A DNA stretch of 36,239 nt from Desulfuromonas sp. (GTDB lineage: Bacteria; Desulfobacterota; Desulfuromonadia; Desulfuromonadales; BM515), in NCBI GenBank assembly GCA_002869635.1, contig PKUF01000051.1, positions 1 through 36,239 on the forward strand. The letters are read 5' to 3'. The position numbers were made by a program, and so were the translations under genes. Position 1 is the stretch's first letter. Each line of letters starts with the position of its first letter. Below the pieces are notes generated by a model. That model was not told the DNA's origin and made no database searches. It was given only the letters and a program-made list of their open reading frames with translations. Shown here one piece after another: positions 10,233-18,044 of the stretch.

Positions 10233-10403
10233 TCACGCCGAGGGATCGTCGACTTTTTTACGGTTAATCCGTTCATAAAGAGCGATCTGCTCCGCCATTG
10301 AGAGTTTCTTCTTACAGCAGGCGCTGCGCAGGCAGAGGCGACAGCGGTCATCTGAGCACCATTGACAGGCATGACAATCTGGGCAGGGGTGTTTCTTGTT
10401 CAT
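10233..10403 (-). CDS. small Cys-rich protein (56 aa)
   Basis: MNKKHPCPDCHACQWCSDDRCRLCLRSACCKKKLSMAEQIALYERINRKKVDDPSA; RBS GGAGG before ATG 10403. Confidence 0.7.
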   Translation of the reverse strand: MNKKHPCPDCHACQWCSDDRCRLCLRSACCKKKLSMAEQIALYERINRKKVDDPSA

Positions 10404-10454
10404 AACATCCTCCACCCCTCCATTCTAGAAAGATGGCAGTTCTGCCGCAAGGGG

Positions 10455-11743
10455 TCAGGAGGTGGTAAGCTGACGACGTTGAAGAAAGAGATATCCCGCC
10501 TCACAGAGTTCGGCGGCGAGCAGCAGGAAGATGGCGAGTGCGACCCCAGGCAGAGAAAGAGGAAAGATTGTCAAACCACCCCAGGCGACGAGGAGCAAAA
10601 GGGCCTTATAGAGGGTGGAACGACCGAGCTGACCGGTGCGGTGCTCGCCGGTAAACCAGCCTCGTAGCAGATTCGCGGCCCCATAGAGCAAAGGATAAAG
10701 GGCGCACGCCGCAAGTGGTAAGGCGATGTAGTGACGCATCTCCTCTTTCAGCCCCATCACCTGTCCGAGAATCAGCTCGTTGAGAGGATAGGCGGTGAGG
10801 AACATCAAAAGGGCGAGGGTCAAGCCGAGGCGCAAAGCGAAGCGATGCAGAACCCGACCATCCTGAGGTGAGGTGAGGTGACGAGTGTAAGATAGGCTTG
10901 CTGCAGATTGCGCATCGGTCCAGCCAACAAAAAAAGAAAACCACGGATCACCCCGAACGACGCGAGAGCCAGCGGCGCATCGGGGAGGCGACTGATGATG
11001 GCGTTGATCAACAGGGGAATCGTTTGCTGCAGGCAGGATGAGTAGGCAAGGGGAAAGGCGAAGCGGAGAATCTCCTTCGTCCCCTTCTCGGGTTCTTCGG
11101 TTACCGGTTGTGGACAGTGCCGGGCAAAAAGCCCCATAAGGGCGGTTTCGACAACGATGCAGGCGAGCAAGGCAAAAGCGCCGAGGCCGGCGCCGCTGTA
11201 CCAGGAACGACCGAAATAGATAAAAAAGAGCAGAGCGGCGATACGCACACCTGTAGCAAAGGAGACAAGGGATGTGCGACGGGCTCGGATCACCAACCCC
11301 TGAAAAAAGCCGCGAAAACCGGTAAAGAAGGGGAGCAGAACGAGGATACCGAGAACCCGCCGTGCTTCGTTCGCAATCGCCGGGGTAACGCCGAGAACGG
11401 TTTCGAGGAGAAAGCTTCCCAGTGGCGTAAAAGCGACGAGCGAGAGCATAAAGGAAACATAGATGGCGACCAACAGGACGAAAATCACCGTCCCGCGCCG
11501 GGAGCGTTCTCCCCGCACCATCGCAATAGTAACGGTGTGATTCTGGTATGAAGGGGAGGCGAAAAAGAGGTGTAGAACCATGGCGACAGAAAAACCAGCC
11601 AAGGCGATGATATAGTCGTCAAGGCGGGCCAGCGCCGCATTGATAATTGAGTGTGAGACACTCATTAGCTGCACGTTGAGGAGCAGCGGAAAGAAGAAGA
11701 GGGAGATCTCTTTCATCCCCAATGTCGGTTTGCCCGTCGTCAT
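10455..11743 (-). pseudogene. MATE/MOP-like polytopic membrane protein, interrupted by frameshift at 10864-10881
   Basis: ORF 10820..11743 and ORF 10455..10835 are two halves of one hydrophobic protein; deleting one TGAGG unit joins ...YLTLVTSP to QDGRVLHRFALRLGLTLALLMFLTAYPLNELIL... (about 427 aa). Family assignment is tentative. Confidence 0.75.
10864..10881. repeat. pentanucleotide tandem repeat (TGAGG)x3 plus TGA
   Basis: read directly: TGAGGTGAGGTGAGGTGA. Confidence 0.97.
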
Positions 11744-12387
11744 GACGCCTTGCCGGGGAAGAGACGAAAGAGATCCTCTGTCGTATCACAGCTCCAGCGG
11801 CTCGGTAACCCGTCATCGTGGCCGAACCCCCAGCGACAGAAACACGTGGCGACCCCAGCAGCGGCTCCGGCACGAAGGTCAGTGTGGTGGTCACCGAAGA
11901 GAATTGCATCCTCAGCCAGAACCTCCAGCGCCTGAAGAGCGGTCTGCACCGGCAAGGGCGAGGGCTTCTTTTCAGGTGCGCTGTCGCCACCGATGATGAC
12001 CGGGAAGAAGGCGGTAAGGCCGAGCCCAGCGACAATTTGGCGACAGAGCGCCTCGGGCTTGTTGCTAACGATTGCCATCGGCTGCAACGCATCTCGACTG
12101 AGGAATCGCTCAAGACCGGGATAAAGGCGGGTCTGATCGAGAAGATGTTCCTCGTAAAGAGCAAGAAAACGCTGCAGGCGCTGATCGTTGCAACGATCAA
12201 GCTCAAGTGTTCGGCGGATGAGTTCGCGGGCACCGTCACCGATGGCAAGGCGCACGGTAGAGAGCGAGAGAGGGTCAAGCCCCTCCTCTTGTCGCAACAG
12301 GTTGACCGCCGTAGCAAGATCGGCGAGTGAGTCGACGAGGGTGCCGTCGAGATCGAAGAGAAAAGCGTGGGGCATGGAAGAAATCAA
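11740..12387 (-). CDS. gph: phosphoglycolate phosphatase-like HAD hydrolase
   Basis: HAFLFDLDGTLVDSLADLATAVN...AIVSNKPEALCRQIVAGLGL...LFGDHHTDLRAGAAAGV. Confidence 0.9.
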   Translation of the reverse strand: MISSMPHAFLFDLDGTLVDSLADLATAVNLLRQEEGLDPLSLSTVRLAIGDGARELIRRTLELDRCNDQRLQRFLALYEEHLLDQTRLYPGLERFLSRDALQPMAIVSNKPEALCRQIVAGLGLTAFFPVIIGGDSAPEKKPSPLPVQTALQALEVLAEDAILFGDHHTDLRAGAAAGVATCFCRWGFGHDDGLPSRWSCDTTEDLFRLFPGKAS

Positions 12388-13067
12388 CGGCGGCCGAAGA
12401 GGGCGGTGCCGACACGAATCAGGGTTGCCCCTTCCTCGATGGCGACCTCAAAATCGTCACTCATCCCCATGGAAAGCTCCTCCATGGTCACGTTGGCGAG
12501 GCCAAGGGCTGACACTTCGTCGGCGAGCTGGCGCAGTTTACGGAAGTATGGGCGGACCTCTTCGGGGTCTTCGCTCCAGGGAGGGAGCGTCATCAACCCG
12601 CGAACGTGCAGCTTTGGCAAGAGTGCGATCTTTTGCACCAGCGAGATAAGCTCGTCAGGAGCACAGCCCGACTTGCTCACCTCGCCACCGACATTGACCT
12701 GAAGCAAGATATTAGCGGATGTCGCCTGATCTCGCCACTGGCGGGCGATCTCTTGGGCGAGCGAGAGACGATCGACGGAGTGGATAAGATCAACCTTCCC
12801 TTTAAGATACTTCACCTTGTTGCTCTGCAGAGCACCGATGAAGTGCCAGTGCGGCGATGGAGAGATCTCCTCGTATTTACCAAGAAACTCCTGCACGTAG
12901 CTCTCACCGAAGAGTTCCTGACCGACGGCGCGGGCTTCGACGATGGCGCTGGCCGGCTTAAGCTTGGAGACGGCAACCAGACGGACGGAGTTTGGGTCTC
13001 GCTTTGCGCGTTGGCAGGCGATATCGATGCGTTGGCGCAGCGGGATGAGACGGTCAGAAAAGGTCAT
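12384..13067 (-). CDS. YggS-family pyridoxal phosphate homeostasis protein
   Basis: VRLVAVSKLKPASAIVEARAVGQELFGESYVQEFLGKYEEI...WHFIGALQSNKVKYL...GLMTLPPWSEDPEEVRPYF...LSMGMSDDFEVAIEEGATLIRVGTALFG. Confidence 0.95.
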   Translation of the reverse strand: MTFSDRLIPLRQRIDIACQRAKRDPNSVRLVAVSKLKPASAIVEARAVGQELFGESYVQEFLGKYEEISPSPHWHFIGALQSNKVKYLKGKVDLIHSVDRLSLAQEIARQWRDQATSANILLQVNVGGEVSKSGCAPDELISLVQKIALLPKLHVRGLMTLPPWSEDPEEVRPYFRKLRQLADEVSALGLANVTMEELSMGMSDDFEVAIEEGATLIRVGTALFGRR

Positions 13068-13080
13068 AGCATCAGATTTT

Positions 13081-13689
13081 TCAGTCGCCGGCGATAGGAA
13101 AGAGTCGGATTGCGCCGAGGTCTTCGAGGGTGGCGATCACCTCACAGAGCGGCAGGCCGACGACGTTGCTGTAGCTGCCGCTGATTCGACGAACCATAAA
13201 GGCGCCGAGCCCCTGAATGGCGTAGGCTCCGGCCTTGTCGAACGGTTCACCGCTGGCAATGTACCCCGCGATTTCCTCCTCTGTCAACGGCTTGAAGGTC
13301 ACCTCGGTGCGGGACAGATCGCTGCGCAGGGTGTCGCTCTGGCGGTCGTAGACGGCAAACCCAGAGAGGACCTCGTGGCTTCGACCGGAGAGGGAGCGCA
13401 ACATGGCTGCGGCGGCCTCGGCATCCTGCGGCTTCCCGAGGATTGTTGTGTCGCGCAGAACAATCGTGTCGCTGCCGAGAAACCACCGCCCCGGGACATC
13501 GGATCGGGCAGCAACCTCCCGCGCCTTATCGCCGCTTAGGCGGACCACATGCTGTGCCGGAGTCTCACCGGGGAGTTCCGTCTCATCGGCGCAACTCGGC
13601 ACCACACTAAAGTTCAGCCCGAGCTGACGCAGCAGTTCACTGCGCCGGGGAGAGGCGGAGGCGAGGACGAGATCAAATGTGGTGCTCAT
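13081..13689 (-). CDS. maf: Maf-family nucleotide pyrophosphatase
   Basis: [36 protein letters not shown]...GSDTIV...[31 protein letters not shown] 13689 overlaps trmFO stop (ATGA). Confidence 0.95.
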
Positions 13690-15011
13690 GGGGCGACTCT
13701 TTTCGTCTGCAGCGTTTGGCGCCACGGTTCGAGATCGTTGAGGGCCCGCTCCGCCATGGCGAGTCGGCGGTCGGCCCTCTTCATCTTACGCCCTTCCAAA
13801 GGGGGAAAGAGGCCGTAGTTGACGTTCATCGGCTGGAAATGGTCCGGATCGCCATCCCGCAAATGGGTGAGCAGAGCCGCTAAGGCGGTATGCGTCGGTG
13901 GCAAGATCGGCTCTTCATCGCGCAAAGTAGCAGCGGCAAAGAGACCGGCGAGAAACCCGCAGCCGGCGGACTCGACATACCCTTCGACCCCGGTGATCTG
14001 GCCGGCAAAGAAGATTCGCTCCTCGCCCCGTAACTGCAGTGTTGGAGAGAGACAGCGTGGGGCGTTGATGAAAGTGTTGCGGTGCATGCTGCCAAGACGA
14101 GCGAAGCGGGCGTTTTCCAACCCCGGCAGAGTACGAAAAATCCTCTGCTGCTCACCGTATGTGAGTTTTGTCTGAAATCCAACCAGATTATAGAGGCTCC
14201 CCTGACGATTCTCCTGCCGCAGCTGGACTACGGCGTAAGGTTCCTTGCCGGTGCGCGGATCGGGGAGACCCACCGGTTTCATCGGCCCGAAGGCGAGGGT
14301 CATCTCGCCGCGTTCGGCCATCTCTTCAATCGGCATACACCCCTCAAAGTGGATCGCTTTTTCGAAGTCGCGTGGCGCCACCTTCTGCGCTTCTTTAAGG
14401 GCGGCAACGAAGGTGATGTACTCCTCCTTTGACAGGGGCGAGTTGAGATAATCGGCCCCTCCCTTGTCATAACGCGACGCCCGCCAACAGATGGAAGTGT
14501 CGATGGAGTCAGCCTCAACAATGGGGGCGATGGCGTCGTAGAAGTAAAGGTCATCACTCCCTGTGCAACGAACGATCTCAGCAGCGAGTCCATCCGAAGC
14601 AAGGGGCCCGGCGGCGATGATCACCACCCCTTCATCGGGGATCGCACTGAGCTCCTCGCGCCGCAAAGTGATACGAGGATGGGATTCGATCCGCTCGGTC
14701 ACCCGTGCCGAAAAGGCGTCTCGATCAACGGCGAGAGCACCGCCGGCAGGGACCGATGTGGCGTCGGCGGCGCTCATAAAGAGGGTGTCGCAACGGCGAA
14801 GCTCCTCCTTGAGACAACCGACGGCGTTGTTCATCCCGGCACCTCTTAGCGAGTTAGAACAGACCAGTTCGGCGAGTCCGCTGAGGCTGTGGGCGGGAGA
14901 GAAACGGGTGGGCTTCATCTCGTAAACGACAACGTCGATCCCCTGTTGAGCCGCCTGCCAGGCCGCTTCGCAGCCGGCAAGGCCGCCGCCGATAATGGTC
15001 AGTTGAGACAC
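13686..15011 (-). CDS. trmFO: methylenetetrahydrofolate--tRNA-(uracil-5-)-methyltransferase
   Basis: [34 protein letters not shown]...[11 protein letters not shown]...[18 protein letters not shown]. Confidence 0.96.
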
Positions 15012-17564: not shown

Positions 17565-18044
17565 TCAGTTGTAAAGCCGTGACCAGTCGTCTTCCATGAT
17601 GCAATCGACCTCTCGCCGCCAGAGATCATGCGAACGGGCGAAAATGGTCAGCGCGGTGATCATTTTCATCTCCTGCAGGGTCAATGGCTCATCGGCCTGC
17701 ATCGCCTTGTCAATGATCTCTTCCTGAATGAGATCGTCGATGATTCCCATTTCACGCATACGGCCGAGAAACCCACGGCACTCGCAGGAAAGTTGCCGCA
17801 TCTCAAGACGGCTGTAGACCCGTCGGGGGGAGCCATCATCACTCAATGACGGTTGCGCCGACGGTTGCAAGGTGAGCGTTTCGACCCAGCCAAAGGCAGC
17901 GTCAATCTCCTCCTCGGCGAAACCAACGGCGAGAAGTTCCTCGACGATCTCAGAATCGGAGAGCAGATCGCGGTCTTCCATGGCGTACTGGGCGATAAGG
18001 CTGACGATGGTCAAGATCCGCTCTCTGAAGAGATTGTCGCGCAT
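17565..18044 (-). CDS. smg: Smg family (DUF494) protein
   Basis: MRDNLFRERILTIVSLIAQYAMEDRDLLSDSEIVEELLAVGFAEEEIDAAFGW; located between dprA and topA. Confidence 0.85.
   Translation of the reverse strand: MRDNLFRERILTIVSLIAQYAMEDRDLLSDSEIVEELLAVGFAEEEIDAAFGWVETLTLQPSAQPSLSDDGSPRRVYSRLEMRQLSCECRGFLGRMREMGIIDDLIQEEIIDKAMQADEPLTLQEMKMITALTIFARSHDLWRREVDCIMEDDWSRLYN

Follow-up and report, generated by a model that had tools for sequence, protein, structure and literature searches.

A pentanucleotide tract at the frame break of a conserved ANKH/MATE-like transporter gene in an uncultured Desulfuromonadales lineage

Results

Tract and broken reading frame

The window, the whole 36,239-nt stretch of DNA analysed here, corresponds to contig C108 in a metagenome-assembled genome of 138 contigs that is 74% complete. 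Its minus strand carries a transporter gene that is split into two parts at a pentanucleotide tract (Table 1). The tract TGAGGTGAGGTGAGGTGA, which reads as CCTCA units on the coding strand, was found only once in the whole genome by sequence search. Its position and the frame change there, both pointed out by a sequence-only reading of this DNA, were confirmed, and the two minus-strand ORFs listed in that reading, 10820–11743 and 10455–10835, were present with matching translations. At the tract the upstream ORF falls out of the frame used by the family, reaching a stop codon ~16 codons further on, and the minus-strand frame ending at 10455 continues past the tract as LTSPQDGRVLHRF..., with its annotatable ORF beginning within TM9.

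Table 1. Features of the transporter locus in the window.
Feature	Coordinates	Strand	Basis or remark
Pentanucleotide tract, TGAGG x3.6	10864..10881		1 occurrence in genome
Transporter gene, upstream fragment: TM1-8 plus ~16 out-of-frame residues	10820..11743	-	ORF, homologues, model
Transporter gene, downstream fragment: TM9-12, shifted frame, open, conserved residues kept	10455..10880	-	ORF, alignment, model
HAD-family phosphatase, 4-bp overlap with transporter start	11740..12387	-	same neighbour in relatives
YggS-family PLP protein	12384..13067	-	conserved neighbour
Maf nucleotide pyrophosphatase	13081..13725	-	conserved neighbour
60-aa Cys-rich protein directly downstream of transporter	10233..10415	-	61 related loci

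When the tract was read with two units, both parts joined into a protein of 427 aa, an exact match to the family length that aligned with the relatives from end to end; the continuous ~427-aa protein predicted in the sequence-only reading after loss of one 5-bp unit was thus borne out. The alignment confined the frame change to the tract, as the window retained QQAYLTLV before it and D with the next residues after it. The locus therefore holds a non-triplet tandem tract inside a reading frame, one length of which yields the full protein.

The encoded transporter and its neighbourhood

The gene product matched the Pfam family ANKH (PF07260) above its cut-off and MatE (PF01554) weakly, with MatE scores of 13.9 and 15.4 bits for the two halves in the window compared to a gathering cut-off of 24.9. 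Among 42 homologues, 41 matched ANKH and 16 matched MatE at E<=0.01. The AlphaFold model of an intact homologue (L003; pLDDT 93.7) contained 12 long helices arranged in the two-lobe, 12-TM fold of the MOP superfamily, and its top matches among PDB structures were MATE and MurJ proteins at a TM-score of ~0.5–0.7. A sequence profile search of the PDB matched no chain. The protein shares its 12-helix fold with MATE (6fhz, 4mlb) and MurJ, yet its identity to the solved structures is merely 11–16%. The model and its structural matches point to a putative MOP-fold exporter or flippase-like protein, in agreement with the MATE/MOP-like family call made from the sequence alone.

The gene order trmFO-maf-yggS-HAD-transporter-small Cys-rich protein is common to the relatives, in which the HAD gene was found at 81 loci, yggS at 73, maf at 60 and the gene for the small protein at 61. 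The small protein itself had no Pfam match. Judged by these neighbours, the transporter sits in a conserved housekeeping-type cluster, not in a surface-antigen locus.

Homologues in the order and the break site

The relatives compared were Desulfuromonadales, including Desulfuromonas, Malonomonas, Desulfuromusa and Geopsychrobacter; a closer genome was sought, and the window's own genome proved to be the sole member of its family among those compared. The transporter gene was matched in 49 of 58 same-order genomes, none of them with an internal stop, and the remaining nine, some of which are incomplete, had no detectable copy. In a second collection, which overlaps the 58-genome set, 69 loci were found. 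The ~76 distinct same-order homologues are all single intact frames of ~430 aa. The length across the break site was identical in 76 of 77 aligned proteins (the window counted, in its two-unit reading), the sole exception being L090 with five additional residues. The site in the relatives reads QQAYLTLV-xxxx-D-xxxL, and a tandem repeat of any kind was absent there from every distinct same-order homologue aligned; the tract was thus neither retained nor variable among these homologues, none of which belongs to the same family. Compared in this way, as the sequence-only reading had proposed, the homologous locus was intact in the relatives and showed no shared three-copy allele.

In the high-confidence L003 model the break falls in the short TM8-TM9 loop, between the TM8 helix (255–286) and the TM9 helix (290–315). 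This loop is poorly conserved and for that reason tolerates a chance repeat.

State of the downstream half

Of the alignment columns with at least 95% conservation among the relatives, the downstream part retained all 18 and the upstream part 87 of 88. Identity in the downstream part divided by that in the upstream part gave a ratio of 0.767, which ranked 58th of 77, well within the range of the intact relatives, so that neither the conserved columns nor this typical ratio gave the picture of a decayed pseudogene under relaxed constraint after the lesion. Since the 3′ part is undecayed, the frameshift is very recent, reversible or artefactual. The suggestion of a recent or reversible shift, drawn earlier from the open downstream half, gained support from the 18 conserved columns.

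Repeat statistics of the genome

Primitive 5-mer tracts were counted in 1.79 Mb of this genome and compared with first-order Markov sequence. Two tracts reached 15 bp or more versus 2.0 expected, and 34 reached 13 bp or more, the length of the two-unit state, versus 31 expected. The two-unit precursor tract is therefore ordinary and occurs at chance frequency, which leaves only the third unit, lying exactly at the frame change, to be explained. An 18-bp pentanucleotide tract appeared in none of six simulated genomes.

Three other repeats were encountered in this genome. The only other primitive 5-mer tract of at least 15 bp is (ACGAA)x3 at 10663–10677 of L168 (G000:C67), inside a HAD-like phosphatase ORF that appears intact. 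The heptanucleotide ACCTGCT is repeated 8.1 times at 17745–17801 of L139 (G000:C38) and reaches the contig end; no long ORF spans it, the assembly seems to have halted within it, and it is the best candidate for repeat variation in the sequence of this genome. At 13336–13352 of L124 (G000:C23), (GT)8.5 is followed by a G run with an ambiguous base (N) and is possibly variable or badly assembled.

Discussion

The relatives carry intact genes, the break in the window lies exactly at the repeat, and the 3′ part has not decayed. We regard one recent expansion by slipped-strand mispairing in the sampled lineage, breaking a conserved transporter gene with no selected switch, as the most likely explanation and somewhat more probable than all others together; an assembly or consensus error comes next, and a contingency switch after that. 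Of the two interpretations offered in the sequence-only reading, the fresh frameshift accordingly stands on these observations, and the candidate phase-variable switch gained no positive support, given the missing repeat in homologues, the low copy number, the precursor at chance frequency and the housekeeping-type cluster.

The expansion would have begun with 13 bp of chance repeat, 2.6 units of TGAGG, where the ANKH/MATE-like gene encodes the loop, and slipped-strand mispairing may then have added one unit. The resulting +5 shift would end translation ~16 codons later and leave a TM1-8 protein, presumably non-functional, and loss of one unit could undo the lesion at an ordinary, presumably low, slip rate. 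The absence of an 18-bp tract from the six simulations counts against this account; a single slip from 13 bp accounts for the tract. There is no indication of selection for switching. Stop-start reinitiation, at a TTG overlapping the TGA at 10820–10823 or at a TTG at 10835, was considered and rejected: the second product would begin within TM9, and a working split protein is, judged by the model, unlikely.

A lesser chance, though one to be taken seriously, is that the cells carry two units and an intact gene, the third unit stemming from a read in the minority or from a wrongly resolved assembly path. The assembly is fragmented and derives from a mixed population, so the third unit may exist in no cell, and the undecayed 3′ part fits this possibility too. 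The other window genes checked appear full-length, which makes a lone break in a conserved gene suspicious; the same lack of other breaks speaks against a generally error-rich assembly, as a Pfam scan of the 30 other window ORFs, three of them with no family above cut-off, revealed no second broken gene. However, 5-bp tandem insertions are not typical of short-read or long-read errors, and reads are much longer than this repeat. A literature search on indel errors in metagenome-assembled genomes yielded nothing bearing on this locus. It is very unlikely that the three-unit allele is already fixed in the species with decay just starting: the assembled consensus is the three-unit allele, and the nine relatives lacking a detectable copy suggest that some lineages may do without the gene, but there is no second lesion and every conserved 3′ column is kept. 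Least probable by far is translational recoding, in which a -1 frameshift would rejoin the halves. Such a shift would restore the frame, and an in-frame TTTTTTG heptamer lies upstream at 10928–10934; slippage there would nevertheless garble the end of TM8, where ~20 residues (GPMRNLQQAY...) are among the most conserved, the tract itself has no slippery heptamer, and the relatives need no such shift. We therefore rejected this heptamer, and the A7 run at 10928–10935 that gives rise to it on the coding strand was judged irrelevant.

Reversible slippage under selection, with two units ON and three units OFF, would make the gene a phase-variable contingency locus, a reading we consider unlikely. 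The unit is non-triplet, two units give the exact ON length, the OFF half is undecayed, and pentanucleotide switching has precedents in H. influenzae (PMC2651432). In the putative LPS flippase gene of the hmg locus of that species, two TCAGC units are in frame, consistent with expression, and three are out of frame (PMC2651432); both there and here a flippase-type gene carries a pentanucleotide, and two units but not three are compatible with expression. This parallel shows that slippage is possible at such a low copy number, which keeps a low-rate reversible slip, and the switch with it, as a minority reading. The hmg-locus tract varies in copy number among sequenced strains, belongs to an LPS locus and resides in a species rich in repeat-based switching, whereas the window locus is seen in one assembled genome and its repeat in no relative. 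A short pentanucleotide tract likewise shifts the reading frame of H. influenzae hsdM, in which (GACGA)4 switches to three units (Zaleski et al. 2005, as cited in PMC2651432); by that account the switching rate was measured for hsdM, and the window locus is known from its sequence. The three full units of the tract equal the minimum of at least three pentanucleotide units in a permissive H. influenzae survey (PMC2651432) but fall below the cut-off of at least five applied in PhasomeIt studies of Campylobacter and Neisseria (PMC6321876, PMC5953494). Pentanucleotide tracts at chance number in this genome and a conserved cluster in place of a surface-antigen locus also argue against a switch. A literature search on phase variation in Geobacter likewise found nothing bearing on this locus.

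To our knowledge, repeat-based switching is little described in Desulfuromonadales. A low-copy pentanucleotide switch of an ANKH/MATE-like exporter in this uncultured lineage is improbable; if true, it would carry repeat-based phase variation into an environmental group that respires metals or sulfur, and into a conserved exporter. The locus cautions against reading a switch into one metagenome assembly. Under the single-slip explanation that we prefer, the event is ordinary in mechanism and would neatly illustrate how one slip in a short repeat, present by chance in a loop that tolerates it, can break a conserved gene.
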